Below, in pieces: positions 25,832 to 64,000 of a DNA stretch of 64,000 nt. The notes beneath the pieces were generated by a model. That model saw nothing but the letters and a program-made list of their open reading frames with translations. It had not been told where the DNA came from and made no database searches. The stretch covers positions 3,708,517 to 3,772,516 of the forward strand of contig NC_090956.1 in NCBI RefSeq assembly GCF_040807025.1, read 5' to 3'. Numbering within the stretch: position 1 is the first letter of the stretch; each line of letters opens with the position of its first letter. This DNA is from Struthio camelus. Lineage: Eukaryota; Chordata; Aves; Struthioniformes; Struthionidae. The translations under genes and the position numbers were made by a program.

Positions 25832-27190
25832 GAGCCACCCCCGCATCCCCCTGCCGCCCCCCAGCCCGCCCTCACAGCCCCCTACCGCCCCCCCAGCCCC
25901 ACCGCCCCCCAGCCCGCCCTCACAGCCCCCCGAGCCACCCCCGCATCCCCCTGCCGCCCCCCAGCCCGCCCTCACAGCCCCCTACCGCCCCCCTACACCC
26001 CCCCACCCCACTTCACCGCCCCCCCAGCCCCTGCCCCACCACCCCCCCATATCCCCCCGCCCCACTTCACCGCCCCCCCAGCCTCTGCCCCACCAACCCC
26101 CCACATCCCCCCGCCCCCCCCACATCCCCCCGCCCCACTTCACCGCCCCCCCAGCCCCCGCCCCACCACCCCCCCACCTCCCCCCCAGCCCCACCCCCCC
26201 ACATCCCCCCCAGCGCCCCTGCCCTACTGCCCCCCCCACATCTCCCTGCCCCACTTCACCACCCCTCCCAGTCCCTGACCTGCCCTACCACCCCCCACCA
26301 TCTCACAGCCCCCTACTGCCCTTTCCAGCCCCTGCCCTGCCCCACCGTCCCCCCACCCCGCTTTGGCCTTTCCCCACATCCCCCACTTCACCGCCCCCCC
26401 AGTCCCTGCCCCACCGCCCCCCCACCCCACTTCACCGCCCCCCCAGTCCCTGCCCCACCGCCCCCCCGCCCCACTTCACCGCCCCCCAGTCCCTGCCCCA
26501 CCGCCCCACTTCACCGCCCCCCCAGCCCCTGCCCCACCACCCCCCCCACATCCCCCCGCCCCACTTCACCACCCCCCCAGCCCCTGCCCCCCCATATCCC
26601 CCCGCCCCACTTCACCGCCCCCCCAGCCCCCGCCCCACCACCCCCCCACCTCCCCTGCCCTACTGCCCCCCCCACATCCCCCCGCCCCACTTCACCACCC
26701 CTCCCAGTCCCTGACCTGCCCTACCACCCCCCACCATCTCACAGCCCCCTACTGCCCCCCCCACCCCCCATTCCCTGCCCCACCTCCCCCCCAGCCCCTG
26801 CCCCACCACCCCCCCACATCCCCCCACCCCACTTCACCGCCCCCCAGCCCCTGCCCCACTGCCCCCCCACCCCACTTCACTGCCCCCCCCAGCCCCTGCC
26901 CCACCTCCCCCCATCCCCCCACCCCACTTCACCGCCCCCCCAGCCCCCCCACCCCACTTCACCGCCCCCCCAGCCCCCCCACCTCCCCCCAGCCCCACCT
27001 CCCCCCCAGCCCCTGCCCTACTGCCCCCCCCACATCTCCCTGCCCCACTTCACCACCCCTCCCAGTCCCTGACCTGCCCTACCACCCCCCCCCATCTCAC
27101 AGCCCCCTACTGCCCTTTCCAGCCCCTGCCCTGCCCCACCGTCCCCCCACCCCGCTTTGGCCTTTCCCCACATCCCCCACTCCCCCCCCC
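25832..27190. repeat. C-rich minisatellite between DRG2 and GID4, with internal duplications
   Basis: About 1.35 kb of nearly pure C-rich tandem sequence lies upstream of the DRG2 promoter. Basic words are CCCCACTTCACCGCCCC and CAGCCCCTGCCCCACC, in units of roughly 30-60 bp. A 60-bp stretch starting GAGCCACCCCCGCATC recurs at exactly 100 bp (25832 and 25932). A longer block of about 170 bp near 26217-26389 reappears almost unchanged near 27012-27182, and about half of it appears again near 26655-26765. The array ends in a short CA run near 27193-27208. No gene is visible inside. Confidence 0.9.
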
Positions 27191-27726
27191 CACACACACA
27201 CACACCAGGCACCCCCTTAGCTCCTAAAAAAGCAGGGTGGAAAAGGAAGTAAGGGAGCACAGCCCGAAGGGGCCTCGGCACGCCGGCTGCTCCAGGCGGA
27301 GGGACACAAGGTAGGGTGAACAGAGGGACACTGCTCCCCATCCGGGGGGACGCCCCACGACACCGGGGGGCTTCGCTCCCAGGAGAGGCGGCAGCAGAGG
27401 AAGGCGCCCGACAGCTTCTCTGTTTACGGGCAGCAAACTTGGAGGGAACCCAGAGAGCAACCACCAGCCTTTCCCTGGGACAGGCAACACGCTCGGCCCA
27501 GCCAGCCCCACGCCGTGCCGGCGCTGCCCGCCGCGCAGCCCCTGCGTGGGTGCGGGCGCCGCGGGCTCCCCGCCAGCACTGCCTGGCTACCAGGGTGCCG
27601 AGGGAGCGGGATAACTGGCGATACATATCATTAGGCAGCGAGATGGAGCATACTTCTTCCCTCGAACCAAGAAGCGCTTTGGTTTACAAACACACATGGG
27701 CACAGACCCTGTAAATACAGTTCATT
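27191..27726. other. Intergenic spacer between the C-rich array and the GID4 3' end
   Basis: GC-rich, non-repetitive sequence. No exon, RNA gene or known repeat is recognised. Confidence 0.4.
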
Positions 27727-27732
27727 TTTAAT
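27727..27732 (-). terminator. GID4: Candidate distal poly(A) signal (ATTAAA) of GID4
   Basis: ATTAAA on the minus strand at the far end of a long AT-rich stretch that follows the GID4 stop codon, which would give a 3' UTR of about 2.8 kb. An AATAAA on the minus strand at 29761-29766 is a nearer alternative, giving about 0.8 kb. Transcript ends cannot be chosen from sequence alone. Confidence 0.4.
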
Positions 27733-29392
27733 TTGGACGTTGATAGCTCTGCAAAATACTTCTTCCAGTCCCTTTTCCATATTCCATCCATAAATATACT
27801 AATTCTTCAGCCAACATAGTTTAAAAAAAAAAAACCAAACAAACACAACCTTTTCAAAAGACTCAAATATCCAGTTTCTTACTTCCTCTCCCCAGAATCT
27901 CACCTAGTTAATCTTTCACCACAATGCAACATACTTAACAGCTCTTTGTAGCTTATCAAACAATTTAAAGAAAAACAAAATCAAAACCAAGGCTTTAGAG
28001 AAGGAAAGTTCTGAAAACAGAGAGCCCCTTCAAACCTTTCAGCTGTTACAACTGGTGGTTTGGCTTCAAGACCTGCTACGAATCCATGGCATGCGTCTTA
28101 CAAAGAGGCATCGATCTGGTGATTTTGGGTTTCAGCTGAAATATGCTTCAAGCTGGTTGGAATGAGACGAGCAGAGGGAGAGCGAAAGGACTCCTTCCCC
28201 ACCCCTCTCTCAAAATATCAAGTCTCAGTGGCTCAGAGAAAAACTTTAGGAGAATTTTTGGGACAGATATACATATTAAATACCCCAGGACCCTTCCTAA
28301 CCCAGTTTCTACAACTGACCACAGTAGTACTTCAACTAAAACAACGCTAACAATCTGACTGTAACACTGGCATTGTGACAATCCTGGGGAGCAAAGGAGA
28401 CTGGTGTCACCACCAATATTGCACACAGCTCCAGAGACATGTAAACAATCCACGGCATAAGAGCATCTACATTTGCAAAGCAGTCTTTTGGAACTGTCTT
28501 GGAAAAGACTAGTCCCTTCACTTCTTTAAAGCAGAAGAGCACCATCAGTTTTAGTCTCTAAAACCAGGACATCTCCCAGTACCACTCAGTAAGAAACATC
28601 TCACCTTCCCTCACCTCCAAAGGGTACTAGTTTCTCTGAGGGGAACAGAGTAAAAAAGGGAATCTTTGTTTCTAAACTACTCTCTTCCCAGCTGTTCTGC
28701 CCTCACGTTGGCCCTAGAGAAAGCCCCTCTTCCCTCCACCTCCTCTGGAATCGCTCTCCTACTTGCCTTTGAGCTGCTCTACAAATCTACCAGCAATGAC
28801 CAACACAACAGCACGCGCTTCCTTCATCGCTAACACGGCAGGCGGCTTCCCAGCCTGCAGAAAGGCCACGTATCCTGCCTTCGTGCGTAAGCAGGTCTCT
28901 CTCCATTTGTTCTGGGGAAAGGATTCATCTGCAACAAACAGCACGCAAAAGGAGGGTGCTTTCAATACTGCATCATCTGGTGAGACCAGCCCGGCCACTT
29001 CTCCAACAATGCAAGATCCCAATTTGGAATATAGGAAACGGGCTCACTGAGACCTGAATACTTTCTTGTTAAGGCTTAAACTAGAAATTCAGCTGCTGCA
29101 ATATACCAGACAGACACGCCGCAAAAAGGAAGAAAGTTAGTTAACAGAAGAACCAAACAACCTTAGCACTATAGGTATGCAGAGGGCTTTGCTTTCCTCT
29201 CACAGGCAGCAAACCAATTCTCATAACTCGCCTGGTTGGTGCATAACACAAGCCTGCATTAAGGGGGTTGTTTTTAACAGCCAAAAAAAATTGCAAACTA
29301 AACTCTCACAAAAGCCCTGCAGGTGTGACTGTCACATTAAATATACAACTGAGGCCAACTTTTAAAATGCCTTTAAAAAAACCGCACGCGCA

Positions 29393-36500: not shown

Positions 36501-37310
36501 AGGGCAATGGGGGAGACATCCAGGATCACAGACCTCAGCAGAGCTGAGGGCAATAGGGCAAGGGAGTGAAGCGAACAGACCCAAGGAAAATGAGGCCACA
36601 GTGGTGGGAGGTGGAGCAGAAGAAACAGGCCTGAGGGTAACAGGGCAAAAAGGGGGAGGGGGGGAAGAAACAGGCCTGAGGGTAACAGGGCCAAAGAGGG
36701 GGAGGGGAGAAGAAACAGGCCCTGAGGGTAACAGGGCCAAAGAGGGGGAGGGAGAAGAAACAGGCCCTGAGGGTAACAGGGCAAAAAGGGGGAGGGGGGG
36801 AAGAAACAGGCCTGAGGGTAACAGGGCCAAAGAGGGGGGGAGAGAGGAGAAACAGGCCTGAGGGTAATGGGACAAAAGGGGGGAGGCGAGGGGAGCCCGA
36901 GCTGAGCGCAACGGGGCAAAGCAGGAGGCCAGGCCTGAGGGTAGCGGCCCCTCGCCGGGGCCCGAGGGGGAAGGGAGCAGGGAGGCGGCCCCGGGCCGGA
37001 GGGACGGGGTCCCCCGGCGGTTGGGGGCCGCTCGCAGGCCCGGCCAGGCCCGGGGCAGGGGAAGGGAGGCCGGCCGGCCCCTCACCTGCATGACCACCTC
37101 CACCTCGTAGGCGTTACCCTTGCTGCGCTGCTGCCCGCGGAACTTGGCGCCGCTGTAGAGCAGCGAGGTGGCCACGCCGGGCTGCGCCGTGTTGATGGGG
37201 GGCGGCGGCACCAGGCTGCTGGCGGCCGCCCCGGACGACGGCGACGAGGCCGAACCCGCCGCCGCCGCCGCTGCCCCGCCCGCGCGGCACCGCTCGCTCC
37301 GCACCGGCAT
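30555..37310 (-). CDS. GID4: GID4, substrate receptor of the GID/CTLH E3 ubiquitin ligase (6 exons, 229 aa)
   Basis: GID4 is the beta-barrel subunit that recognises N-terminal proline and other hydrophobic N-degrons for the CTLH ligase. Coding exons: 37310-37086, 34747-34688, 33710-33603, 32801-32700, 31996-31866 and 30618-30555, totalling 690 bp. Recognised protein: MPVRSERC, a low-complexity Ala/Ser stretch, then the barrel domain from about residue 45: [59 protein letters not shown], and the C-terminus IYEFR. The ATG at 37310 is the first in frame: a TGA lies in frame at 37448-37446 with no ATG between. Human GID4 is annotated at 300 aa with a longer N-terminus. The gene is divergent from ATPAF2 across about 0.5 kb. 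Intron 1 contains a 45-bp minisatellite. Confidence 0.97.
36622..36895. repeat. 45-bp minisatellite in GID4 intron 1
   Basis: Six copies of a G-rich unit containing GAAACAGGC, then CTGAGGGTAACAGGG, start at 36622, 36667, 36712, 36757, 36803 and 36849, so the period is 45-46 bp. A decayed copy follows around 36930. Because 45 is a multiple of three, open frames run through the array on both strands; these are not genes. Confidence 0.95.
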
Positions 37311-37806: not shown

Positions 37807-40800
37807 ATGTGGCGCGGCTGCCGGCGGCTGCTGCCCGGGCGCTGCTCGCCGGCCCGGCGCCCCGGCCCGCCTCCTGCCGCCGGTGGGGCTGCGGTGGGGC
37901 CGGGCGGGGGCCGGGCCTACGCCCCGCCGGCAGGTGAGGGCGGACGGGCCCCTCGGGGGCTTCGGGGCTCCCTCTTGGGGGGTCTGGCGGGCCCCTCTGT
38001 TTGGGAGAGCCCGTTCCCTCCTCCGCTGCGGGGGGGAGGGGGTCCTCCCGATGGGACCCCCTTCCCCCCCCCTCCCCGGGCCCTGGAGGGCGACTTCCCT
38101 CAAGGTCACCCCGGAGCCCTCGCCAGCAGGACGAGTCAAACAGATGGAAAGCGATAAAACTCTCCGCGAGGAGGCTAACGAGCGTTCAAGCACACCCCTC
38201 GCCGGGTCTGGGGCTCCTTAAGCCTTTTTAGGTGCTGAGGTGACAGGGCCCCACACGCCGGGCCTCCCCCTGCTCCTATGCCCTGGCTTCAGCAGGGCTG
38301 TCACTGACAGCAGGGCTAAGCCCTTGGTGTATTGGTTTGTTATGGTTGCTATTGTGGTTTTGGTGGGTGTTAAGACTTTGTTGGGGGGGGGGGGGGAGCA
38401 CTCCAGGTGTGGTTCAGGCACACATTGGGCTGTGAGTCACCTCTGCAGGTCTTGCTGGAAAGGTGTAGATATGAGGACGGTAACATTAGTTTTGTTGCCT
38501 ATGAGAGGAGGCTGCAGGTTTTCAGGACATATATCCTGGGGCTCTTTGGCATCTCAGTGAAATGTCTTCTCTTCGGTACGTGTATGTGAATCTTTTCAAA
38601 ACTGTGCCCTAATAATTTGGCATTTTTTGAGGCCATGAAACTAGAGTTGGGTCAGCCTGAGCAGATCCTCTTCTGTTTCACTGGTGCTCTGTAGAGGTGT
38701 GGGAACGTGCTCGTATGGAGTGGCACAGAAAACAGACCTGCAGCTCAACCTGTTTGCATTACTGTTCAGGAGGTATAGATTTAGGGATTCAGGATTTATG
38801 GTCCTGTTGCTCTTGTCCGGGGAATGGTTTGCAGATTCTTCCTGCTTTGAGTGAGAGATGAACCTGTGAAACATCCATTCCCATGCAGTCCAGGCTCTCA
38901 GATGTCTGCTGGGAGTGTACGCAACAGTATTGCTACGAAAGGAGGCTGCTTGTAAAACAGTTGTAATTCCCTCAGATTCACCTTGCTGGTAGAGCAGGCT
39001 TTCTCCTGAGCAGAGCAGGAGCTGCCAGCGTGGGATGCGTAGGCTGGAGGGAGCCGAGGGAGTGGTTCCTCCCCTGGTGACTCATTTGTATGCTGCAATG
39101 TGCATGATGTCCCCAGCATGATCCAGCTGCTATGACATTGCAGGCTACTCTCCTGCAGGATGTCATCCAAGGTGAGAGATGGGGACTGCTGATTGCATGT
39201 AGCTCCTGTAACAAACCCACTCCTGTGGGTGACCGTGGTAGAGGGAGCTGTGCCAAAACCCCCGGTGGGGTGCAGTATCTTGCCCCATGCTCTCTGAGCG
39301 TGCTGGGAGCTGTAGTTTTTGCTGATGCAGACAGCCGCATCCCTCCATGTGGTGCATCAGCTGCAGGTGGCGGGTCAAAGCAGAGAATGAGCTAAATTCA
39401 CTGCAGGAGATTGCGTGGGCTGGAACTGTGTGGGTTTGGAGTTGGCAGGGGTGGCAAGGGACACTGCTGGGGCCTGCCCTGCCTTGTGATTCAGTTCTGC
39501 TGGGTTTCTTGTCACTCTGAATTGGAACAAGCTGGGAGAGGGAGTTAGCCAAGGCAGTCCAGGAAATTAATTTGTCAAACATGATTGTAATCAGGGAATT
39601 TTGAAAGACTGAGCCCAGAGTGAAACTCCATATGGACTGGGGAGGAATGACAAGATAGGTCCGCTTTAGAAACCTCCCCTGCCAGACTCTGTAGAAACCT
39701 GCTGAGGGTGAGTTGGAATGGAGCTGAGATCCCAGCCCTGGGTGGCAGAAGCAAAGAAAAGCTGGGCCCATTCACTTGCTGGTTGTGCACAGCAACACTC
39801 CCACCGGTTTCATGATGCTTCCCCAGTGGAGAGGAGCTCACTGAAATGATGTGGTGCTTGGAAGCTGTCTGCAAAAAACACTTCAGAGTGCAGTCTATGG
39901 CAGTGCCATATTTTTCTCCCTCCCTCCTTCCCCCAACAAAACTCTTGAGGCCAGGACTTCTCCCCCCCTCCCCCCACCATGTGCAGAACTAGACTGGGGA
40001 GAGGCTCTTTTGCCTGGGCACAGGCAGTGGCTAGGGGGTTGCCTGGTCCTCTTCTGGCGAGAGGCTCCCTGCAGGCCCCCAGGCTCAGGGTGTGGATGAA
40101 CGAGCGAGACCTTGTGACAAGAGGCCAGGCCATCTGGGCCTCGACACCACCGAGGGCTCCATCTGTTTTAAGCTGTAGTGGGAATCAGGGGAGGGGACTG
40201 AACTTTGCTCTGACTGCCCTTTGAATGGCTCTTGTTTTTGCCCCCAGAAAGGAAGCGGTTTTACCAGAACGTTAGCATCTCGCAAGGAGAAGGTAAGCGT
40301 GGCCACTGGGAGAGGAAGGAAGGACTGGGAGGAGGTGTTGGTCCCTGGGGAGGGGGTTATCACTGCTTCCTTAGCAAGACAGTGGCACACCTGCAACCCG
40401 TGTCATATGAGTGGGATATTTGTCACCAGCCTGCTTTGTCCTTTCCTCATTTCTAGCTAAACCATGTGGCTGGATTCCAGCTCTGAATCTGCTCCCTCTG
40501 TGGGGTTGTCTGTTGTTCCTTAGGGCATGCTCCTCTTTAATTCCCCAGGATTTCTACTCTGATTCTCCAGGAGGCTTTGAAATAAACCTGGACCACCGGA
40601 AGCTGAAAACGCCCCAGGCGAAGCTCTTCACTGTTCCCAGCGAGGCCTTGGCTATTGCAGTGGCAACAGAGTGGGACTCCCAGAAGGACACCATCAAGTT
40701 CTACACTATGCACCTGGTGAGCACAGCAGGCCGGGGTGCCCAGATGGCTGCACCGCTGCAGCACCTCAGAGGAGCAGAACGAGGTGTGCTTGGAGCAGTC

Positions 40801-43800
40801 AGAACAAGGAATGTGGGATTCACGGGAGGGACTCGGAATGCTAGGGGCTGAAGAAGGGTTAGCCAGGCCCGCTGGGACCTGCTGAGGGTTTCGCCAGCTG
40901 GCAGAACGGATACCAGGGCAAGGTTTAAGAACCAGTTTGGGATGTAAGCCGTGCTCTGGAGCGAATAAGATGAGGGCAGCTCCTGAAAATGTTTCCTTTT
41001 GCATCCTTCCTCCCACAGCTTTTCTGAGTATTTGCAGTAGAACTGAGATGGCTGGGTCTAAAACTGAAGTGACTGTGTAGATATGAGAATGGTCTCCGAG
41101 TGCAGAACATGGAGGAAGCAGATTGTCCTAATGCCAAAGGAAATGGGAACAAGAGATCAGGACCTTAGTTGTACACTGAGGAGAACCTTGCAGCTCCGTG
41201 GGCAGTTAGATGCTGCCGGGGTTACTGCCAGGGAGGGGAATCTGCCTCACGGAGGAGTTTGAGAAGGGGCTGGGCAGCATTATAAGGGATGGCATGGGGA
41301 GGGGGTGGAGGAGACTGGATGAGCTCTGGAGCAGTCTTGGAGCCCTCTGCTCTTGGTTTGGTGAGCCTGCCCCAGCAGCATCTGAGGCCAATGAGAAGAA
41401 TCCTATTGCATGAGCCAAGCTCTGGCTCTGCATTCCCCTCTAGCTGAGCTCCTCAGTTCCCTCAACTTATCCTGAATTCCTCCACTTCTGCTTAGCCTTG
41501 TGCTATGGAAGCTAGTGCTTCCCCATGCCTTGAATAACAGTGGTTTGTATTGCTTTTATCCTACAGACCACATTGTGCAACACAGCTTTGGACAATCCTA
41601 CTCAGCGAAACAAAGTACAGCTGATCTGTGCAGCTGTGAAGTTCCTGGAGACTGACACTGTCTGGTAGGAGACCGTCAGGGACCCTCTACTGGAGAGGCT
41701 GGGCTATCTTATTGCAGTGTGGTTTAGGAAAGGTGCCTGGAGGATTCAAATATGACAGGAGGGAAATGTCTACTGTAACTGAGTCCTTGCAGGGCTCTCA
41801 CCTGTCCTGGTTTTGGCCCAAGGGTTTGAATTAGTTGAGGCCAGCCCTACCTTTGCAAACCTGGTGGATCTCCACGAACTTAAAGGGTACAGGTATGAGG
41901 GAGAAAAGGGACCAGGCATTCTGTTGATCTCTGTTTTGGGCACCTCCATGCTGGGCAGGGGCAGAAGCAGCAAGAAATGAAGTTTTCCATGGGAAAAAGA
42001 AAACAGCTCTCAAAGGCATTGGAGAATCTGTCAGCCCGGTCTTCTGGTCCTCCTGTACTGTGCAAGGAGGAAGGGGAGCTCAGATTACTTGTACCAGTAG
42101 CTAAATGCTTGTTGGTCCTTAAAGTCTCTCTGCATTGCAGGATCAAGCCTACTCCTGCCCCAGCTCATCTCTTGCAGTCCCAGCCTCCAAGGTGTCCACT
42201 GGAAACTGCTCGACCCCTGTGGGTAGAGGGGAACAGGACACCCCCCCACTTGGGCCTGTGGCTTTGGTCACAGTGGGCTGGGCTGGGTGGCAGCTGGCAC
42301 CAGGGAGTACTGAGCCGAGCAGCTGGGCCATGGTGAGGGAGGAGGAGTGGTGCCATGTAAATAGTTCCAGTGGGATATGTCCCCTGCTCTAGTCACTAAA
42401 CCACACTGCATCCCGTGGCTGGCTTGGGGCTATTGGTAATTTTCTGTTGACTATCTTGCTAGAAAACAGACGAGCAAACTAGAATTGTCCTTTCTAGGAC
42501 AATGAAAGGCTCCGAATTCAGGGAAGAGTCGGGGGGGATTGTTCCCGGTCAGATCTGCTGTTGCCTGGGTGGAAAGCAGGCCAATGCTCCCCTTCTTTGG
42601 TCTATGTTGGGGATGGCTTTCCTCCCAGATGTGTGCCCCAGCCTGGCAGGGAGCGGTCTGACAGCTTGCAAGTGAAGATCCAGTGTGGTTTTATTCTGCA
42701 ATGTCCCAGCTATCGTGTGGAGGAGCCAGCTGCCTTGGCAGAGCTGCAGAAGAACGAATGGGATCCCATCGTTGCCTGGGCTGAGAAAAGGTGAGAGGTC
42801 AAAGATATTTCTGTTTCCTTATACCCTGCCCTCCTGTGCCGCTAAGGCAGCATAGTGCTGTGATAACTGGGACCAGTCATGCTGGCCCCAGCATGTTGCA
42901 AGCTGTGCAAGGCCAGTAGCTCCAGCACTTGTGACTGTCAGAGCTGCAATGCACACAAGCCCTGTGCTTGTCTAAGGGACCGTGTGATCGTTGCAGGTAT
43001 AACGTGACAATTGGCTCCTCTACCAGCATCACAGGGCCAAATATCCCAGCCAGCACCAAGGACACCTTCATCAGCCATCTGGCGTCTTACAACATTTGGG
43101 CTCTGCAAGGTGAGAGAGACTGGGCCGTGGAGAGCCCTCAGCTCAGGCTGTATGAGTGAAGGAGACAGTTCCCTTCAAAGTGAGAGAAGATAGACTATAA
43201 TGTTTCTCCCTTCTTGCTGATGTGCTGAATGTCCTTAGCTTGTACTGCTGAATGAGACCTAAAGACAAAGAAATGGAGTGATCTGTTTGCTTTGCTCAAG
43301 TCCTCAAATGCAAGACTTGCATGAGCAGCAGACAGTGAAACCCACAGAAGATACTAGCTTGGCAGCTAAGGAAAGTTAACAATGTTGATTTCTAGTATAG
43401 GACTTAAGCCTTTCCTTTCCCCCGTAAAGATTTTTTTTTGATGAATCATTTCCTTTGCTCATAGTTTGTAACGTAGGAAGGCATGGTGCAAGGGAAAGGC
43501 ATGCGTGTCCCTTGGGGAAGGGGAAAGCTCTGGGCGTTCATCAACTTAAGACCTGAAATCAAGGTCTGGCCTGGACTGGTACTGCAGGATGAGTCTGACT
43601 TCACTTCCTTCCTTAGATTCTGTGCATGTATGAACACCCCCACTTCCCATCAGTGTGAGCTGAGTCACAAGTGCTCAGCAGCTCGGAAGTTCGGGCCCCT
43701 CTTTCATCGTCCTCCTCCCACCTCTGCATGTTCATGGGATTTGCGCCGGTCCCTCAGCCGTCAGATGCTAGCTATTCCACCCTAAAGAAGGGTGTCTGGC

Positions 43801-46889: not shown

Positions 46890-49800
46890 CTACTCTGGCG
46901 GCTCCAGGGCCTCCATGTTTTCCAGCTCCTCTTGGAGATAGTCAATGTACTGAATGATCTCTTTGACACGGTTGCGGTTTCTGTCAATCTCGTTTTGGAG
47001 AGCCTGAACAGATTCAAACCAAGCCCTGAATCCACAGCATTCTCAAGGTCACTGGCTGTAGCACGCAGGGGCCCAGCGAAAGGGAGGGTGTTCTTTCCTA
47101 GCAGTGTCCTTGCTGCTCAGACCCGACCTGGCACCCCCTGACCAGACCTGTCTGTGCCTCATCCTCACAAGAACAGGAGGATCCCTTACCTTCTCTGTCA
47201 CAGAGGCCTGCCAGCGATGTACATTGCTGAGGATGTCACCCTCTCGGTTATCAATCTTCAACAGGTGGATGTCGTGGGATGCGTTCACTGCGTTGACAAT
47301 GGTGTTTTTGTCCACAAAAAGCTAGGAGGTAATGTGACCAGATCAGGGGAGGGGGGAGGCGGGTGTGCAGCAAAGCAGCAGAGCTCAGAATTAGCAGTGC
47401 AGTAACTGCTCTGCCTGGGGGAAGAAAATAAGACCGCTGTGTTGTACTGACGGAGCCCTAGTCATTGGGATGAACCCAGTGCTTTATCATTTGGAAGTAT
47501 GTGCCCAGGCCTCGCTACAGCTGTAAAGGAGTATTAACCCTTGTACAGATGGGGAAACTAAGGCAGCTCCCTTGCCCTCACCTGCCTGACAAGCTAGAGC
47601 AGAGAGCCAATGCCTGCTCCTGCGCGCTCTGCTGCCTCGCAGCACACGGCAGGCCCCTGTGGGCAGCTGTCGTTGAAGCAAGGCTGCATATGCTCCAGCA
47701 TGCCTAGCCCAGCAGGTGCGGGAAGTGGAAAATCACACTTGGAAGGGTCTCTTGAACTGGTGGCACTGGCTGTAAATCTTCATTTTTGTAGAGCCCTAGC
47801 TTCTAATAGAGGCAGCGACTTCCCCCGTGGTTTTAAATAGAGGGTGGCTTCACTAAACCGTAATGACTCTCCTCCTGCAGCCAAGTGCAGCTGTTGAACA
47901 AATGAAGATTGCTTCTCCATGGAAATGGATGGCGGTGAGGCAAAATGGGTGCACAGCAGCAGTGCGTAACCACAGCCATCTGCACAGGCTATAAAGCAGG
48001 GAGCTCCCCCAGGGGGCTGAGGGGTCTGTTTTGTGTCTGTCAGCTTGTGATTACCCAGAGTAAGGGGGGGGGGAGGGGGGGGCTGGAATAATCTGGACAG
48101 AGCAAAAAGACAGTGAATGCAAAACTTAAGTCAATTAGCTACTAAATGAAAGAATAACGGAGGAAAAAAGGTCAACAATGTTGCTGACTGGAGCACTGCA
48201 ATGATCTTTGTGCGTTTCGAAGAGCTCTTGGGATCTTTAATATCACAGCAAGACTAAAGCCTCAGTGGGTGAACCCATTTGAAAAGCCATGTCCTGCCTC
48301 CAGGACAGCTAAGAGGCTGGGAGAGCTCTGGGAAGGGGTTCTGAAATCACTGAAGCAAACAGAATCCCAGGGCAAGGGAGTCACAGCAGTGTTTGGATTC
48401 TCCAGGAGTGGGCAAGGCCTTACAAAACCAGCTGAGTGCAGCAAAGAAGATGCCTAAATGCCTGCTGGTTTGGGGCTGCCTGGAAGTGAGCCAGAGAATT
48501 GAGTTGTGCTGAAGGTAGGAGAGAGATTTACTCGGCACCTCTCCTGGGCTGCTGCCACCAGCTCTTGCAGAGCCCAGGGAAACCTGCAGTGCAGTCATGC
48601 TCTTTCCTAGTCAGCAAAGATGCCCAGCAGTGCTGTAGTTCAGCCAGGCAGCTGGGGCCATCTGGAAGGAAGTTAAGCTCTAGTTTAGACATAGCTCTAG
48701 CTATACTAAGCCTCCCTAAAAACCATCCCTTCTGAGAAGAGGCTGTGGCCTCCTTTTATTGCTCGCTCTCTTCCAGAGCTCCATTTTTTTTGTGTCCTCA
48801 CCATTCGAACGTCATCTGGCAAATTCTTGTCAAGCTCGTTCTTGACGGATTTCTCCAGCATGTTGACTGAGATCTCTAGCAGCTTTTCATGATGACGGTT
48901 TTCCAGGTCTCGGCACTGGGCCATCGTACAGATGATTAAGGAAAAGGCTGACCACATTGTTCACTTTGAGATGAAACTTGACCTGCTATAATTAAATGCT
49001 GAGACTCAGAAAGAGCAACATACTGCATAAGAGAGGGCTGCTAACCCTAATGCGGGTTTGCAGAAAAGTGCTCTGTTGCCTTGCGTCCTCGTTGCAGGCA
49101 ACACATCAGCAATAGAAAAGAAACTTAAAGAGGAATTGTAGGTATTTCATTGGCTACTATGTCAGGAACGCATACAGAAAACAGTCTAACCAGATTTTCC
49201 AAGAGTTGTCATGCCTGCCTGGAGAACAAAGGAAGTCTCAAAGGGTAAAACGTTGTCCAAGTGCTACAGATGTTCAGCAAGGGAGAATTTAATCAGAGCC
49301 TCTTATGCCTTCTAGAGACTCCCCAGAAAGAAGTTTGGCACCTGAAATTTCATCCCCCTGCTACTGTTGATCTGGGAAGCATATGGCACTTGTATAGTTT
49401 GGCTAAGAAAAATACAGAAGACCTCTGGGAAAAGCTGGGAAAAGGCCTTTTCTATTAATGAAAAAAAAATCCAATTCTATTCTGATGGCTCAATTCTGGA
49501 TTTAGAAGTGCGGTATACGTACCTCACTTGGACATCCAGGCGAATATACTTTCAAAAGGATATATCCCCTGAACGTTTTCAGTGAATGTTGACACTAGCT
49601 CAGCAATGTTTCTTTCAAAATCCTTTATTAGTTCCTTAACAGAGGGAAAAAGAGGAAATGTTGTAATGAACACTTGCATCAACAGAGAAGAGAGTCTTGG
49701 AATAATCAAAAATCCATTATAACTTGGATTCACTGTTGTTATTAGTGAACGAGTATGAACTGCCTCAAGCACATGAGCTGTTTTGAAAGTGCTGCAGGAG

Positions 49801-50357
49801 TTTCTTTTCTGCATTGGTATGTGACAGACAGAAAATCAGAATCGATTTATTGGAAGGAAGTTGATTGAATGATACTTTCACCTGGCCTCTGGAGGAAGCC
49901 AGCTGATCACTTCTTACCCTCATATATAAAATGCACAGAGAATGCTGTATTTCTGCAAACTGCCATGCTGCAGTCTCCTTGCAGGTACAAGGAGCCTCTT
50001 GTCAGAAGCATAACCAACTCCCAGGCTTATTGCAGCTTTTGTTTTAGTCCTCAGATACTAAACCTGCTGCTACCTATTACCTCTCTCAGAAACGGCTGAT
50101 GGAGAATCTTTTAGGTCTTGCACTTAACATCTCACTACAACAGTTCAAATACAGCCACCAGAACCTTGCACATCCAGAAGGGAACGCTTCTGATCTTTCC
50201 ATCCGTGATCGTAAATACATTAGGACCAATTCAGATAACATTAAAAGGCACAGTCCTGATGTATTGAGGAATCCATTTGGAGCTCTTGCTCTCTGTCATG
50301 CACATTCACAAACTAGCAAGCAGGAGCCCTTAACAGATTACTAAAAAAAAAAAAAAA

Positions 50358-50388
<31 letters not shown>

Positions 50389-53300
50389 AAGATGCCCATT
50401 TGCAGCCCTGCCCTAGTTTTTGAGGGAAAGTCTGGGAAGAAAAAAGGCAGCCATTATGCAAACAAATGCAGTAAGCTGAGCAGGAATGTGTGCTATGAAT
50501 TGCTAAGATTACAAAGATCAGCTTCAAAGAATTACACCTCTAGAATCCCAAATGAATATCCTACACTATGCAGCAACTTTTGTACACAGACCTATGAAAT
50601 GACTGAATGACCTCAAGTCCTTTTCTCTGAAGTCTAGGAAATCAACTAGGACAGATGTGAAGGAAATACTGTACTCAGCTCTGAGAAACAGAAGTCTGTT
50701 GCAATGTATCAGTGTCCAGGGCCTGACTCTCACACTGATGACCCTGAGCAGGGAAAGAATAAGGTGGAGAGAAAACATGAGCCTGCCTCGTAAAACTATA
50801 TACTCTCCTAGTACCATGGGCTACTAAACAGAGGGGTGCAGCAACAAAAAAGGACACACCCCCCCACCACCACCGGCGTTCTAGATGTGAGTCTTAACAG
50901 GTATATGTCTGAACCTTACCTCCAGCTGGTCAACTGTCCGCATTTCCAAGGTCATGAGCGTTTCTGACAGCTGAAGTATGTCCTCATTGTACTCAGCTAG
51001 CTTAGACTCAGCGATATCGTAACTACTGACGTCCTGAATCTCATCCAGCGTCTAAACACAGAGATACATAAATTACTTATAGTTTGTGTTCAGCACTCCA
51101 TTGCAATTTAATTAACTTGTTACACATGTGAGAAAAGTTCTGCTGCTGATTAGCTGAAACGAAATGTGATGATTCAGTAAGTCTCCAGATTTACATACTG
51201 GGTAGTCAAGTGTGCTGAGGTATGCTACAATGTTAACAATCCAATAGCAATGCAGTGAAATCAGTGAAAAACTCTTGCTCATGCTCCAGTCAGCAAATGA
51301 CTTCTCCTCTCATGCTTCCAACTTTGGCTCCCCTTTTGACACATTGCGAGGGAAAAATATTAGATTCTTGACATTGCTGGCCATAAAAGAGAGATTAACA
51401 ATTACTTCTCCGAAAGAAACGCAGGCCTAAATCTGGATCCCCTTGAAGTGAAGGAGAATCTGGATTGACTTCCATAGGGTCAGGATGTAGTATTCTGCAT
51501 ATGGAATACCTTTCACATCCTGACTTCCTGTTACAGCAAGGAAGTATTGCCCTTCATTTTTAAATATTGATGTCAGTTTTGTATCAGACAAGATTTATTA
51601 TTTCTTGAATCCAAAAAATCCTCCTATGCTAAGCAATGTATTATTTTCAAGCATGCTTAAAATAAGTTAATAATCAAATGTTAATAGGAGAGAAAAAAAA
51701 TGTTTTAAGATGTCTAATCCACTCTTCCTTAGAGGCAATGGAATGGGCTAAAAGAGAGAATTTTGACCGGAATCATTGCCAAGACTTGCTTCTAAGAAGA
51801 GACTAGATTACCCAAGCTTTACAGTGTTTAAAGGGGGGGGGGGGGGAGAGAGCAAAGTATTTTCCTTTCTAATTTAAAGAAGTTAGGGGGCCCGTGAAAA
51901 ACTCCCAAGCAATTCAAGCCACACCTCTGGGATCAAAAACTTGAAAGTTCAAGGGCTGTAAAGCTTCTTTGCTCCTTAACTTTAGAGAGCAGAGCTATTT
52001 TACAAGCTAACCAAGCTTGCATGAAAGGATTACAGATAGACAAACACTAAGAACAGTTTACAAATGTCAGTCTGTTGGGACCTCTGCACTTTTTGAACTC
52101 CTCCATCACTTTTAAACAGCCAATCAGGAAATGCTGTTAAAAGACAAGTCTTCAGTTTTGACACCAAGCCCTCCATATTTATGTGAGAACTGTCACACTG
52201 ACCAACGTGTCCTATTCTAGCAGCTCGATCCATAGCTGAGCCTGTAAGCCATCAAAGACAAACTGCCAACATCTGACCTCTGCTATGTTTTTGCTGTGAA
52301 CATATTGGGAATTCAAGTGCAAGATAACAGAATATGCAAATCAGCCTTTATACTTTGCCTTCTAGTAAGGCTAGAAACTCGTTCCAATTAGGGTTAATAC
52401 AGTCTATTTGCCAGCATGAGTCAGCAAGGTTCAAGGACCCAGGAAGAGAATGACTCAGCAGGCTGCCAGCTTGTGACAAGGCACCTAAATAAAAGTGACC
52501 TGGTTTTCAAAGAGAGTGAGCGCTCGTGACTCTGCCTGCCGGCAGTTGTCAGGGCCTCGTTCTGCTCAGCTGACAGTTTTACCAGGCTTTAGCCTCCCTT
52601 ATTTTTCTGTGGAAACAACATAACGATCCATCTATTATACATGGTTAGAAAGGGATCCAGCTAGAAGCTACGCCTTTAACAGTCACAATGGATGACTGTA
52701 GTTGAGTCCCAGTAGAATGAAAAAGGATAGTCTGCTTAAAAAAAAGAGACTAGAAATACAATAAGTTTACCTATTTTTTCTGTTAAAATTCTTTGAGCTG
52801 TTGCTGTTGACAAAACAATTTGAAGGAAAACAACTTGCAAACAAACTGAACACTGCAATTTCCTTGGTTTTCTTCCCCCTTTTTCAGTGAAGGAAGAACT
52901 CTTGGAGGCCTCAGACAAAAAGAAGGGGAGTGGCATTAAAACCAAAGAATAGATTTTTTTTTTTTTCTTAAATCGATTTCATAAAAAATTTCAAAAGTAA
53001 AAGAAACAGTGAGCATTTTCATTTTCTTGAAGACCAGTAAGTTTTCCAGAGGACAGAAAAATGTCAATGAAAAGATATTTGACCACTTTTTTTTCTGTGC
53101 ACCTTGAAAAACTGCTATCTTTGTGGACAATGTGATAATGCCATGACACGTTAATTCTGTCCTATGCTGAATTAGCCATATAGATAAAGGCTGTCAGCGT
53201 TAGCTGGTTGTCGTTCGGCTAAAGGGTTGAAAACTCCATCTACTGATATAACTTTAAATCCCCAATTCCTTTCCTATGTGAACTACTAAAGCACTTTTAA

Positions 53301-56300
53301 CATTATGTTGGTTACTGAAATCATATTAGCTAACATAACATAATTGCTTAGTATAGGTCTATATTGTAAGAAACATGTAAATGGATAAGGAACCAAGTGC
53401 CAGTTCCTATTACAGCAGTGTAAATCCAGAATCATTTTCCTAATTTTAATGAAGTTATGCCAGTGGTCAGCAAAACTAAAATCTGACATGCGATGTAGAG
53501 AAATCACATCTCAAACTAAGTTTAGCAAAATTACCGTTCTGTTCCGATTTTCAAACTCCAGGATTATTTTTCTGCCTTGCTCTTGGTTGGCTGTTAATGC
53601 TTCATCAAGGCTCTCATAGAAATCGGAGACTTCAGCTTCTCGTTTTTCATACTGTTTCAGACCATAGTTAAACAGATTTTCACAAACTGAGACAAACTCC
53701 TTCCTGTACGTGACACCAGAGTCAAGGTATTTTGTTTGTTCAGTGGAGCAACATTCCTCTAGCTCTGCAAATTGGAGTGGTACAAGTTACTGTTATGTAA
53801 ACTCTGCGGTTCTTGCCTGGAGCAGGGTGCCAAGTGTTCTTCTGTCCAGCAGGACCGGGTCACCCATTCGCATTTTATGCGTAGGCTTTTTCTGTCTTAA
53901 GGGCAGGAGAAAGCTGTGGGAGCTCGAAGGGAAAAAGACCTTGAGAAAAATGGAAACGTGTATATTTCTCTGACTCTTTTCTGACACAGCATACAGAATG
54001 AAGCATACAACGCTATCTGTCTTTACAACTGTGAATACAGTGTCTGTGTAGTTAATAAATACAGCTCTGGAGCCTACAGCCAGGGTACAGAATAAACTAC
54101 TGGCTTGGTAGCATCACAAAAATAACATCAATTTTTCTTCTGCTATTATCTTGGCAATGGAATTGTTTCTAGAGTCTATTGTAGTTAAGCTGTGATGCAT
54201 TTTTCCCCAACAGCGTAATGCAATTTTAAGGAAGGTCAAGTTACTGGCCTTGACAATACTCTATTAATCTGAATGAGAAAAGAAAAAACAAAAGTGTCTG
54301 CTTTCTGATCCCTCGTGTAGGAGCAACGATCAGAAAAAAAGCGCTGGCCTGAAAACTTCATGTTGCCAGCTCTGGCAGGTTGTGAGATATGTGACTCGTA
54401 TCGTTCCGATTAGTCCGTTCCTATCTCCTACCACTTCAATTTCAGCATGATTTTAGCAACTGTGCTCTTGCAATCTAACCGACAAGAGATTTATCGCATA
54501 GCTCATTTTAAAGTTTAAAGGATTCCACACTTAAAGAAAGTACAAAGCCTTTTCCCTGAAAGGTCAGAAAAGAAGGCTACTAAAATTATGTCTGCTTCAA
54601 GTGAAGAAAAAGGAATATGGTAATTACAATGGTGAGAATTTAAAACGCTGGTACCTCGTGATTTGTTGGTGATAGAAGTGAGTGGTTATACAAATGGGAT
54701 GTTTCAAGCTGGGTCGGCCAGCTTGCCAACGGTATAAACCATTTGTTTGTAGCCCTCATATTTAAGGCCTGATATCTCATGAAAACTGTCAGTGGTCTCA
54801 CAGTTTTGCAGTGTTTTTTGGAACCATTCCAAAACTGAACACAGAAATTTCTGTCTCAGATCTTAGATCAATGTAGCTTTCAGTCCTGGACAAAAGCAAC
54901 AGATGAAGAGCCCCTGTTGATGCACCTCCTTCTTAGCTCAAGTCATTAGGTTTTAGCTCTAGGTCTTCTAAACCCAGGAAGGATATGCCTGCAGCAGGTC
55001 ACCCACTCCAGGGAGGTAAGCCAGTTTGGCAGCTTCCGCATCCTCTTCATACATACTCTCAAAGAGGAAGGATCCATTCAGGTACTCGACAAAGGCTGTC
55101 TTTGAAAAGAATCAAAAACAACGCAAGTAAAATAAAGAGTACCAACCTGCTGCCAATCCTTAGGATGTATCTATACTAGAAGCACTTTACTAGCATAGGA
55201 ACACTGGTGCAACGTACAAGTAAAGCTCTTCCATGCGGTCACAGTTACCTCAACACAATGTTTATCCCCAATCACGAAAGCACCCTGCACTTTCAGTGGA
55301 AAACATCTTAGTTCACATGTGGCTTTGCTGCTATAACTGTCTAGCCTAAGGAGAGACAATACCATTTAATCTAATATAAAACATTATCACATACAACTAC
55401 ACACTGCCACGCTTGTTAAGCCTTTCAGATAAGGAGTCAGTGGACTTTGGGGAGGGTCAGAGGGAAGAGCTGCAGGTCTCCTTCCTGCCTCCTCTTCCTG
55501 CACTTCAGCCAGTCTGATCTTCTGGAGGCCTAGGACACAGATCCAGACCACAACTGGTCTTGTTTTCAGTTCACAGGACTACGGTGATCTCTGAAAGCCC
55601 TGAAGAGTTTACCATAAAACTAATAAAAAGCATTAAGTTAGTGTGAAGGAGAAAACAAGTCACTGCACCATGAAAATACTAACAGTTCCCTCAGACCTGT
55701 AATTTTCTTCATCTAATGTCAGGCTGATAAGAACCTCAAGAATGCTTTACTATTTAGCTTCTCAGTGTTTATATGGGTAATGTCACTGTTCAGCCAAAAG
55801 AGTTATGTTCCTCCATGTCATGTATTTTCTACAGCAGTTCCTGATTTCATTCAAAAGATGAGATTAAGAGATTAATCCTAGTCTCAGTTTTAGCATAGTC
55901 AATGTTAACCCCTAATTAAATCTTCAAGCAGGTTAAAAGAGAAGTCAATATCTGTTGCACTTCTTTCCCCTGGGACAACCAGCCAAGGAAAACATACCTT
56001 GTGGTACTCCAGTTCATTCTGCTTTGCCTGCTTTTCCTCCAGCTGAGCCAGAGCCTGGGCCTCCACCTGTTTCAGTGGTTCAGTAGAATACTGGTACTTT
56101 AAAACTGCAGCTTCTCGCTGAGAAATATAAAGAAAGAAAATATTCTGATTAGGTTATCCAGCACTGCCAAATAAATCTAGGCACAAGCAGTCAGTCTTTC
56201 TGTAACATGCATCTGAATGACATCCACATCCCCACTCTTTTCTGTGCTTTATATTAAACTGCCTATGACGTTTCTAATCCGTTCCTCATCCCGCTTTCTG

Positions 56301-59300
56301 TTAGCGTATTACTCGGCCTCTGCATTCAATGCATCTGAGCTGATTTGGACTCAAGAAACTTTCCTCTCTCGATTTCCCAATTTTTTTTCTCTTTTTTTAA
56401 GCAAGAGGCCCTGTTTTGACTTTTAGAATTTGAGCTCTGATTTGATCAGCTAGTGGGTTTAATACATTTACTAGGGAGGAGATGGATCTTTTGAGGAGTG
56501 GATGGCAAGGTAGCAGCAGGGGCAAGAACCTAATTAGTTTTAAACTCAAGCTTGACAAATTTAAGTACGCGACTCTATGACATATTGTCTGCATGAGCAG
56601 GGACTGGACTCAATGACCTGAAGAGCCCTTCCAGTCCTCTGATAAGAGTAATATATATTCCAAATACAGCTCCTGTTCTGTGCTAAGTAAATTTCAAATT
56701 AATCATGATCTTTGGTTATTAAAATTTTTTTCTGTGTTCCTTTGAGCCTTGGGACCAAAAAGCAGTCACATAGGCAACCACAGCTGACGGACTGTTCTGT
56801 TCTAAAGAATCAGGAATGGGAAGCCCATTTGGATGGCACCTGGTTGCCTGGATAACCTGTCAGTCAGCTACTGAAACGAGCAGGACCACCAAGCTTGTTT
56901 TTCTGGATTCGTGTCTCAAGATTTATCTCCTCTGAGATTCCCTGTTCTCTAAGAAGTCTTGCACTCACACTGCAGCCTCTCTATAGCAACATTAACAAGG
57001 CCTCTCCCCCACACTCAGGCACCGATTTTCACAAAACCTGTGAGAACATAATACGTTTGACACCTCTGCCTCTGTCAGATTTGATATAATTTGGCCCACA
57101 GGTTCAGAGCTGTTAGGCAAACACAGAACACACACTGCATGATTCCAAAAGCCTAATTTCTTCAGGGAACCAGACTGAAACGCTAGGATATTGCGGGCAT
57201 AGCAACAAAGCAAAATGCTCTATGTGGTGCTGGTACCCAGTTTCACATGAAGAGAACGCAGAAATACTTACCATAGTGTCACTCACAAGCTTGAAGTCCA
57301 AGTATACCAGCTCTGGAAGGTGAGCGACTGTAAACGGTGCATACTGCTCATTGTCACAGAGAGGGTTCCCCATGAGATTCAGTGTGCGTAAGTTTTTAAA
57401 CCTCCTGAGATAGATCACCTATGCCAAGAGGAAAGAGGTGCTGTACTTCGCAGCGTTGTGGAAATACACAGCTTTGAAATTTGTTGCACTTATCAGAACT
57501 ATGCTGCAATACGTATCCTGCTCAACTACCAAGCATAGGTGACATTAAATTACGAGTTTCTAATGGTTTTATTTGGGAAAGGAAATGCTTATAATTCATA
57601 TCATGGATATATAAATGATGGGTCTGGAGAGAAGGCCTTTAGCTGGGTGGTGGACAAGTCAGGGATCATAGATTAGTAAACTGCTCTCAGAGAGCCCCAA
57701 ATAAATCCTAGCCTCCGTTCCTTCCTTTTCTGATAGCTACTTATTCCTTTTCCAGCTCTCATGGAAACTGATAGGAATTTTGCTATGGATGGCAACAGCA
57801 ACAAAGCCAGGTCGCCCATGAGTGAATAATCTAAAAGAGAAATAGCTGAAGTAAGCACTTCATACCTGGATAGCTTACCAAAACCATAACTCAGTCTACA
57901 GAGGAAGTGAAATCCTAAGGAGAATTTTCTCCTCTAAGGAGGGCTCAGATGTAGTGGCAAATGTCAGTTTAATAATATTTGATATGGGACACTTGGAAAG
58001 CCAGAGGCACTCACGTCTTCTAAAGTGGCCAGGTTATTCTTTCCTATTGAAAAAATCTGTAGGTCTTGTAACGTGTCCATGTGCTCAATTTTAGATATTC
58101 TGTTATTGTAGAGGCTCAGGTCCTGCAGTTTAACAAGGGTATCCAGGCCCTCAATGACTTCAATATTATTGAAGGACAAATCTGTGGAAGAGTTTAGAAA
58201 GCAAGAGTTTTACAAGCACCAAGTCAAGTTAGCTGTAGTAGAACACCCCGACTCAGACCCTGCATTTAGCCTGACTCTTGATTTTAGAATTTATATGGAG
58301 TATCTTCCTCAGGGTTGCTCAGTGTCCCACAGAAAAGGCTCAGCATAAAATCATCATTCTTTGGGTCAGGAAGCAATAAGGGAATCTCCTGCTTATGACT
58401 GTCCATGCAACTTGTAACTTAGAGGAATTGTTGCAGTCAGTCTATGCGAGGACTACACGCACAACCTGAAAGTGATTTCTACCTTAGCGGGAAACCCAAA
58501 ATACAAGAAAAGAGGTAAGGAAATGCCCCTAAAGAGGGTTTTCTGTGACCAATTTGACCCCACTTGCCTTGTTTCTTGCCAACTCTTGCCTGCCACACCA
58601 ATGACCCCCAATATAGCAATTCCCATAGGGCCAGCATATGCCAGTTCCATGCTCATTAACTGCCCTGTTGTCAATGGAGATGCACAAGAGCATACGTTCA
58701 CTATAGCTATTTCACTTTTTTATAGTCCCTCATCTTATTCTGCCTGAAAAATCTATCCTAACACTTCAATTCATCATGACTGAGGGCAATATTTACCCTC
58801 AGGCCAATACCGAGTGCTTTGGGAACCCAAAGAGGGCTGATGAGGTTACCAGCTGTCTGCATCATCCCAGTGCACAGACGGCTGAGACACTCATGCAGCT
58901 GGTGCTGAACCACCAGAACCTCTAGGCAAACTGAAACTCACGAGCGTGCTTCAAAACGCTCTGCTCCCACTGCAGCGATGAGCTGTTGATTCACAAGTGC
59001 ATTAGTCATCTGTGCAGCGGGACGGGGCAGACAACTGGGGGGAAGGACATTTCAAGATGTGCTTAGGAACCAAAGCCCTACATGCTGTTTGCACTGGTGA
59101 CTTAAGATATATTTACACTGCAACCCAGTAATGTGGCTGCAGTTCACAGAGAATGCTTTAAGCTGTGAATCTGTAGCGGCCAGGCCACAGGCCTGCACCA
59201 CTGTATGACACTGCTATTAGTACCCCAATGTATTAGTTGAAAGAAGTCACATAAGACTACAAAGATGGTCGCTTCTTGAAACAGCAACAAAGAGGAGCCC

Positions 59301-61380
59301 TCAAGTGTGCAAGGGTAAAGGCACCGTTGCCTTTCTGCGGGTTCTAGGCTCTGAAGTGCCTGTATTACCTCTGAAAACAGAATACAGGCTTCTGAATCAC
59401 AGAGGTGTTTTCGTAAGTATTTCTGAAAGTTACCGCTGTACAAACCCTGGAAACAACTATGAATTCTTAGCTTGCTGTTCCTGCCACACCAAATACATTA
59501 AAGCCATTTTTTTTAAATAACATTCATGCCTTTTGACATTTGACAATCAAATCAGGAAACACGCAGACAGCTGACAGCCATCCCTGGGAAAGCTCCCATC
59601 AGTTGTATTTGAGAAGGAATGTGACATCCTGGTTTAACTGCAGGTTACTTTGCACCTGTGAAGGCATCCAACCTCACATGCCTGTATCTCACCAAGCCAT
59701 AGAAGGTGAACCAGACTCTCTAGAGCTTCTATCTTCTCAATGATGTTGTTGTCCAGCTGCAATTTAGTCAGATTCTCAAACTGCCACAGATTATCAATCT
59801 GCAGAATATCTAAAGCCACAGGAAAAACAAAACAAAACAAATCTGCTTTTTATGCGAGGCAGGTTTCAGTTTAGCGCACACACTTTCTTACACCAGCAAA
59901 ATAGGTCAGTCTTGCCTCCAAAATGATTTTCAGCAGGCTACAATAGCGTGTGATGACTGCCCTGGCGAGAGCTGAGAGGTCCACTGGCTGGATGAGGATT
60001 TCAGCGCAGCAGCCAGGTTAACCTCAGTGTCCTGCACCAGCACACACTGCTAATCAGTGATGCCAATGAGTCACTAAGGCGGTGCTGACTACAGCACTGC
60101 AGTCAAGAGCGGCTTTATGAATCTACTACCAGGAGGCCTTGACATTCATTTTGCTTTCCAGCTCCAAGAGCGAGGTTTGGGATGAACCTCTGCTTTCCTC
60201 TGCATTTGCAGGCTCCTGGCAGCCAGCTACTGCTTTTGTAAGTTACTCTCCTGCCCCTGAAATTCTCATTACAGGAGAGCAGGTCGGGGACTACTGTTTC
60301 TGTGAAGGCTGCAGTTCAGAGCTGATCAATATCACTGCATTTAGCTTTCTCCAGAAACTCCATCACAAGGGCAGGCTGTTAGGCATTACAGGAAAACACT
60401 AGAACCAAGGTGACAAAATATGAAACATTCTCACCCCAATTCTCTTTATGCCAATGAATTCCCTGAAGATTTTGTTAGGTGCTATTGTTTAGCGAGTGCA
60501 ATGTAAAGCAAGGAACTGCATGCATTAAATACTCACGCAGTGCCATGTTCTGATTTGCACACAAATGTATGCAGAATCAAGTAACAGGAAGTGCGTGTAT
60601 CCTCTGAGTTTCTTAGTACACATTTTACTGGAGCACACAATGAATAAGCAAAAGCAGATTTTGTCCATGAAATTACGTACCCCGAAAATACTCAAATAGT
60701 GAGCCAGATGTTCTTCTTTTTCTTTTTTCTTTTTTTTTTTGTTTTTTGAATGCAAGTTTATGTCTGGTTTGACAGTAAAAGGCAAGGTGGCCTAATGCTA
60801 TGGGTGGCCAGGGGAGGCCACTGAATTGAACTGTCATCGCCATAAGCTACCAAATAGCCCTCACGTAATAGCCAGCGATGGTCACTAACAGCTTGGCCAG
60901 CATTTGATTTGTCCACATATAAAAGGGCCCAACAGGCCTATGGCCTGTAGGTGTCACCACAATATAAATGTTAAATAAGAACGGCAGTGACAATAATAGC
61001 ACAAAGTTAAGCAGCTTTAAAGTTATCAATCAGCAAAGCCCCCCAGCTCTCTCTACTGAAACTACTTCATACAAGTATGACTAAAAATGTAAGTCCAGTC
61101 CCTTACTATTCATATACCAAATCCAAGCTAATCATGATTACATAATTGCCAGTTAGCCACTCAATGCTTAATTCTTCTACCCTCTAATAAATAAACATAT
61201 AATATATATATTCTGATACTCACTTCTAAAACTGAACTGTAGCTCTGTGACGTCTTTAAAACTAATACCTTCCCTTTTGGCAAGCTGCCCTGCCTCATCT
61301 TGACTTTGCTCTTCCACAGCTTTCTGAACCATTTCTTCGCTGATCACATTTGGCTCAATGATATTGTATAATTGACTCAT
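46890..61380 (-). CDS. DRC3: Dynein regulatory complex subunit 3 (LRRC48; 12 coding exons, 522 aa)
   Basis: Axonemal protein of the nexin-dynein regulatory complex in motile cilia. Coding exons: 61380-61224, 59809-59693, 58181-58015, 57418-57272, 56117-55998, 55099-54987, 53709-53535, 51051-50920, 49634-49564, 48925-48802, 47321-47190 and 47003-46890. They total 1569 bp, or 522 codons plus TAG; human is 523 aa. Residues about 50-200 are leucine-rich repeats (NLWQFENLTKLQLDNNIIEK, LSFNNIEVIEGLDTL, IYLRRFKNLRTLNL). The rest is mostly coiled coil (VEAQALAQLEEKQAKQNELE, KNTIVNAVNASHDIHLLKID). A spliced 5' UTR is indicated by an acceptor (CTTTTAAG) ending at 61398. Introns after exons 6 and 9 are AT-AC U12-type. 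The promoter is shared with TOM1L2. Confidence 0.97.
48926..49563 (-). other. DRC3: U12-type AT-AC intron 9 of DRC3
   Basis: The donor reads CAGGGGAT|ATATCCTTTT and the acceptor CATCTGTAC|GATGGCC. A textbook U12 branch site, TTTTCCTTAATC, lies on the minus strand at 48945-48934, with the branch adenosine about 10 bases before the intron end. No GT or AG alternative joins the exons in frame. Joining at AT-AC gives ENVQGMMAQCRDLE, against ENVQSLMAQCRDLE recalled for human. Confidence 0.95.
50343..50390. repeat. Poly(A) plus GA microsatellite in a DRC3 intron
   Basis: A run of 24 A followed by about ten GA dinucleotides, read directly. I see no target-site duplication or retroelement body beside it. 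Confidence 0.95.
51833..51846. repeat. Poly(G) run in a DRC3 intron
   Basis: Fourteen consecutive G. Similar short runs occur near 38383-38396 and 48065-48083. Confidence 0.9.
53710..54986 (-). other. DRC3: U12-type AT-AC intron 6 of DRC3
   Basis: The donor reads CTGCAGGC|ATATCCTTCC and the acceptor GGTGTCAC|GTACAGG. A CCTTGAC branch site lies on the minus strand at 53727-53721, about 12 bases before the intron end. The join gives LLQAYRKEFV, aligning without gaps to LLETYKDKFV recalled for human. The GC and AG dinucleotides nearby would break the frame. Confidence 0.93.
56440..56650 (+). mobile_element. Possible old CR1-type LINE 3' end fragment
   Basis: Near 56606-56640 the sequence GGACTGGACTCAATGACCTG, followed by AGAGCCCTTCCAGTCC, resembles the 3' untranslated end of amniote CR1 elements (GGACTNGATGA, then TCCCTTCCAACC). 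The 5'-ward part is weakly similar. It lies in a DRC3 intron in the orientation opposite to the gene. It is too decayed to subclassify, and only a repeat-library comparison would settle it. Confidence 0.45.
60714..60742. repeat. T-rich simple repeat in DRC3 intron 1
   Basis: Interrupted poly(T) run on the plus strand; no associated element body is recognised. Confidence 0.8.
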
Positions 61381-63626: not shown

Positions 63627-64000
63627 GGTAATGGGGATCTCCGGGCGTTGATGGGGGTCTCTGGAGGCGATGGGGCCTTCTGTGGGGGTTAATGGGGGTC
63701 TCTGGAGGCAGTAGGGGAACTAAGGGGATTAATAGGGGGCTCTGAAGGCAGTGGAGGGCCTCTGGACATTAATCGGGGTCTCTGAGGGCAGTGGGAGGAT
63801 CTGTGGGGGTTAATGGGAGACTCTGGAGGCAGAAGGACAACTGTGGCATCAACAGGGGACTCTGGAGCTAATGGGGGATCTGCAGGAGTTAATGGGGATC
63901 TCTGGAGGCAGTGAGAGGCCTGTGGGTGTTAATAGGGGGCTGTGGAGTAGTGGGAGGTTTCTGGAGGTAGGGCGGATCTCTGGGGATTGGTGAGGTCTGT
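63627..64000. repeat. 40-bp minisatellite in TOM1L2 intron 1, open at the window edge
   Basis: Diverged units close to GTTAATGGGGGTCTCTGG, then AGGCAGTGGGAGG, start near 63647, 63688, 63728, 63768, 63809, 63848, 63888 and 63928, so the period is 40-41 bp. The array seems to continue past 64000. Confidence 0.92.

Follow-up and report, generated by a model that had tools for sequence, protein, structure and literature searches.

A stretch of 64,000 nt of the ostrich genome (C15:3708517-3772516), hereafter called the window, was analyzed. Its minus strand carries a gene for which the following coding features were obtained:

46890..61380, minus strand: predicted DRC3/LRRC48 coding region with start and stop codons; 522 aa in 12 coding exons
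49564..49634, minus strand: DRC3 exon 9, 71 nt
48802..48925, minus strand: DRC3 exon 10, 124 nt

The coding sequence, read from 61380 to 46890, was 1569 nt long and specified 522 residues and a stop codon; the twelve exons counted in the initial annotation of this DNA hold if coding exons are meant. In a phmmer search, the DRC3 chain 9fqr_Qv was the best match to the ostrich protein (E 1.5e-192, residues 1-517), and another solved DRC3 chain, 8j07_3, matched it with an E value of 5.8e-186 (residues 1-517). The chains 8glv_Em, 8th8_C ('LRRC48 protein'), 9e5c_1i and 9y6s_8C were remoter matches. The only Pfam domains found were leucine-rich repeats (LRR_4, LRR_9 and LRR_8), and these were N-terminal. 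Judged from the full-length relation and the N-terminal leucine-rich repeats, the gene is DRC3/LRRC48. An exon-like stretch on the plus strand (40411-40851) gave a Pfam match to ATP12 (E 1.7e-17), which points to an ATPAF2-like gene located downstream of DRC3 on the opposite strand. Presumably, DRC3 and ATPAF2 are adjacent in human also.

Nine of the 11 coding introns of DRC3 were GT-AG introns, and the other two, introns 6 and 9, were AT-AC introns. U12-type introns have the consensus RTATCCTTT at the donor and TTCCTTRAY at the branch site. The following features were located in intron 9:

48926..49563, minus strand: DRC3 intron 9, AT-AC, very likely U12-type; 638 nt, phase 2
49555..49563, minus strand: U12-type donor ATATCCTTT; 0 mismatches to RTATCCTTT
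48935..48943, minus strand: branch motif TTCCTTAAT; 0 mismatches to TTCCTTRAY
48926..48927, minus strand: AC acceptor; intron end 10 nt past the second branch A

The first base of the intron was 49563, the A of ATATCCTTTT, with which it opens, and its last base was 48926, the C of CTGTAC; the intron closes with TTTTCCTTAATCATCTGTAC. An intron had been placed at 48926..49563 in the initial annotation, and this placement proved right to the base with respect to the minus strand, the gene model and the gapless protein. The donor, the branch motif, the CTGTAC end and the distance of 10 described there were likewise confirmed. Counted from the second branch A (the first A gives 11 nt), this distance is slightly below the optimum of 11-13 nt between the branch and the 3' splice site given in a review (PMC3584512). 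The 12-mer of the branch region was TTTTCCTTAATC. There was no separate polypyrimidine tract, and only TCATCTGTAC followed the second branch A. Each of the nine GT-AG introns of DRC3 deviated from the U12 consensus at 2-7 donor positions and at 2-4 positions of the branch site.

The junction between exons 9 and 10 was in frame, in phase 2 (GGG AT/G ATG GCC). Across it the protein reads ...TENVQGM-MAQCRDLEN..., and the solved chains 9fqr_Qv and 8j07_3 read ...ENVQSLMAQCRDLEN... without a gap. Both AT-AC junctions, those of introns 6 and 9, were gap-free in the alignment to these two chains, a result that demonstrates continuity of the protein and is by itself no evidence of intron position.

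Alternative junctions were enumerated as the in-frame, stop-free choices within 75 nt of introns 6 and 9, and also in a narrower version by dinucleotide. The AT-AC junction 49563/48926 had a protein score of 229, the highest of the 3983 junctions enumerated for intron 9, and was tied only with its own one-base slide. Three U2-like GT donors were found within intron 9 in the stretch 49517..49549 (minus strand), at 49549, 49527 and 49522, which matched the U2 consensus MAG/GTRAGT at 6, 7 and 7 of nine positions, respectively. The donors at 49527 and 49522 could be used as cryptic sites. The donor at 49549 (AAA/GTATAT) can be combined with an acceptor at 48948 (GTCAG/CC) into a U2-type GT-AG pair adding 12 residues:

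48948..48950, minus strand: CAG shortly before the branch motif; gives an in-frame 12-residue insertion when paired with the donor at 49549

This pair was in frame, contained no stop codon and, with 207, had the highest score of the GT-AG junctions near intron 9. However, its score was 22 lower than that of the AT-AC junction, the 12-residue insert was missing from the three chains with listed alignments, and its use would leave the perfect U12-type donor and branch motif without explanation. Splicing through the GT-AG pair instead of the AT-AC junction is therefore considered extremely unlikely.

Intron 9 had been described as the second AT-AC U12 intron of its gene, and this also proved correct, the first one being the intron at 54986-53710, which is likewise AT-AC with U12-like signals:

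53710..54986, minus strand: DRC3 intron 6, AT-AC, apparently U12-type; 1277 nt, phase 2

Its donor, ATATCCTTC, starts with AT and had 1 mismatch to the U12 consensus. The branch motif, TACCTTGAC, also had 1 mismatch and was located 12 nt from the intron end, which is AC, the whole layout being ATATCCTTCC...TACCTTGAC-12 nt-AC. For this intron, 4515 in-frame stop-free junctions were enumerated within 75 nt. Same-length slides scored 216-216.5 among the junctions listed, which did not include the AT-AC junction itself, and the best GT-AG pair scored 210, with a donor matching the U2 consensus at 3 of nine positions. Because the GT-AG pair was nearly tied on protein score, it is the U12 signals and not the protein alone that decide at intron 6. 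This intron appears to be a genuine, though weaker, second intron of the AT-AC U12-type class.

The frequency of these signals was compared with chance expectation. Two copies of the 8-mer ATATCCTT were present in the window, both strands being counted, versus 1.18 expected in shuffled sequences. Since this is about the chance frequency, the 8-mer alone carries little weight; both copies were located exactly at DRC3 exon ends. Exact matches to RTATCCTTT occurred twice on the minus strand (in intron 9 and at 19533) and not at all on the plus strand of the window, and TTCCTTRAY occurred once on the minus strand (in intron 9) and once on the plus strand. A separate set of exact-match rates was not used as controls because the real sites supplied the donor rate largely and the branch rate wholly. 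When the gene region was represented by a first-order Markov model, the donor RTATCCTTT had a probability of 1.0e-5 at a given point, and TTCCTTRAY had a probability of 4.3e-4 of occurring at one of the 14 placements preceding such a point; assuming independence, the chance of both is approximately 4e-9, or approximately 1e-9 when the whole minus strand was taken as the Markov model. The U12-like signals might still be a chance resemblance at a misplaced exon boundary, or reflect an assembly artefact, and the expectation of about one ATATCCTT per window would fit such a view. Against this, the donor, branch, distance, AC end, frame and protein were concordant at two introns of one gene, and the probability of a spurious origin is considered practically negligible.

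The minus-strand match at 19533 is a solitary U12-like GT donor, GTATCCTTTCC. No exon was recognised beside it, and it is probably due to chance.

To establish the presence of minor-spliceosome snRNAs, the 1.45 Gb of the same genome were searched. One gene each was found for U11 (108.8 bits), U12 (150.3 bits) and U4atac (97.7 bits), all above the Rfam cut-off; these counts are lower bounds because only the best candidates were scored. In the window, no Rfam family was found at threshold.

L002, 1501-1629: U11 gene
L003, 1501-1649: U12 gene
L004: U4atac gene

Between the 5' end of U11 and the intron 9 donor, 7 consecutive pairs including one G-U could form, and between it and the intron 6 donor a run of only 5. 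Of the 12 positions of TTTTCCTTAATC in intron 9, 11 paired with the U12 of this genome (GAGTAAGGAAAA); the unpaired position was the second A, as fits a branch A. For intron 6, the run in the expected register was 5, and the longest run with U12 (7) lay elsewhere within the first 45 nt of U12. AT-AC introns removed by the major spliceosome are documented (PMC6717393, PMC8280824), and intron 9 could in principle be one of them. However, the U12 class is defined by the 5' splice site and the branch motif and not by the terminal dinucleotides (PMC3584512), and intron 9 has both of these in perfect form, with a branch motif that can pair with U12. Removal of this intron by the major spliceosome thus deserves hardly any credence.

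The U12 reading of intron 9 is very likely correct. It is based on the observed signals, frame, protein match, and U11, U12 and U4atac genes, and on the complementarity of the intron to U11 and U12. Very probably, intron 9 belongs to the ordinary AT-AC (A-type) minor introns and is of high quality, and intron 6 is a second, weaker one of the same type. Under this explanation, U11 and U12 would recognise AUAUCCUUU and UUUUCCUUAAUC of intron 9, U4atac/U6atac.U5 would then join, and the exons would be joined from 49564 to 48925 with the DRC3 frame kept. We infer that intron 9 is removed by the minor spliceosome and that DRC3 output depends on this. With two AT-AC introns, the correct DRC3 mRNA would require two minor splicing events.

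Each AT-AC intron, if retained, would bring a stop codon shortly past the exon. In the sequence, reading on into intron 9 adds 13 residues before the stop codon, at which point 3 exons are yet to come; for intron 6 the numbers are 6 residues and 6 exons. Minor-spliceosome inhibition yielded, in one study, exon-skipped transcripts that carried premature stops and yet escaped nonsense-mediated decay (PMC8034651).

The phases of DRC3 introns 1-11 were 1, 1, 0, 0, 0, 2, 0, 0, 2, 0 and 0, so that phase 2 occurred only at the two AT-AC introns, and seven of the nine others were in phase 0. Phase 2 at the AT-AC introns agrees with a reported tendency of U12 introns to avoid phase 0 (PMC7367187). Introns 6 and 9 flank exons 7-9, which comprise 378 nt or 126 codons. 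Because both introns are in phase 2, skipping of these exons by U12 splicing only would keep the frame. It is conceivable, albeit very improbable, that the minor spliceosome alone joins the intron 6 donor to the intron 9 acceptor, which would make exons 7-9 a U12-only cassette in DRC3. If so, an in-frame DRC3 of 396 residues lacking part of the C-terminal half would be made, by a form of skipping that is hardly ever open to minor introns, and the isoform ratio would be a readout of minor-spliceosome activity in ciliated cells. According to a review, minor introns seldom take part in exon skipping, partly since few genes have more than one of them (PMC3584512).

Taken as two AT-AC minor introns, introns 6 and 9 can be compared with known systems. 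Like other U12-type AT-AC (A-type) introns, they combine RTATCCTTT and TTCCTTRAY signals with 10-12 nt to the AC and a non-zero phase, and intron 9 shares with them the lack of a separate pyrimidine tract past the branch. No structural difference from this class was found; the host gene in this case codes for a subunit of the dynein regulatory complex. In human, AT-AC introns make up about 22% of the minor introns (PMC6717393). The initial annotation considered two AT-AC introns in one gene unusual. The arrangement is indeed uncommon, but its rarity was overstated, since 53 of the 714 human minor-intron genes have two (50 genes) or three (3 genes), and 50 mouse genes have two (PMC6717393). Like the genes of that catalogue, DRC3 has two minor introns among many major ones; it differs in that both are AT-AC and in phase 2. 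Given the signals, the frame, the protein and the catalogued two-intron genes, DRC3 may be regarded as a well-supported example of an established class. The AT-AC class, the two-per-gene pattern and the link to cilia are all already known. RNU4ATAC and cilia are reportedly the subject of a PNAS paper.

The loss of the minor-spliceosome protein ZCRB1 changes the splicing of ciliary minor-intron genes (PMC13216214). RABL2B and ARL16, whose splicing was altered in that study, are cilium-related genes like DRC3; the study dealt mainly with primary cilia, whereas DRC3/LRRC48 belongs to the N-DRC of motile cilia. A literature search, to which the gene lists of U12DB, MIDB and IAOD (which may well include DRC3) were external, yielded no statement on minor introns in DRC3/LRRC48. 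Lrrc48 and the minor spliceosome are both named in PMC9979489, but in unrelated passages, and the names DRC3 and LRRC48 are absent from the main text of PMC13216214, PMC8034651 and PMC6865273.

The initial annotation also proposed that DRC3 depends on the minor spliceosome and connected this with U4atac/U12 disease; both proposals are plausible. A sharper prediction for DRC3 than loss of U4atac or U12, which the initial annotation did not contain, is offered by the loss of CENATAC (PMC8280824). CENATAC depletion affected 92% of A-type versus 24% of G-type minor introns, and AT-AN minor introns were the subclass most affected (PMC8280824). If splicing proceeds as predicted, a motile-cilium gene would need the minor spliceosome twice, both times in this CENATAC-sensitive AT-AN subclass (PMC8280824). 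A missense mutant of mouse Lrrc48 had hydrocephalus, laterality defects and male infertility (PMC4978901). Considering this phenotype together with the two predicted minor introns, retention of the DRC3 introns would be a simple readout in the motile-ciliated tissue of minor-spliceosome mutants.

Repeats were also observed elsewhere in the window. C-rich degenerate tandem repeats with many periods of up to 436 nt occupied 24603-27148, and the GC skew over 24001-28000 was -0.58. Two minisatellites were located at 36618-36886 (45-nt unit, 5.9 copies) and 63643-63954 (40-nt unit, 7.8 copies).
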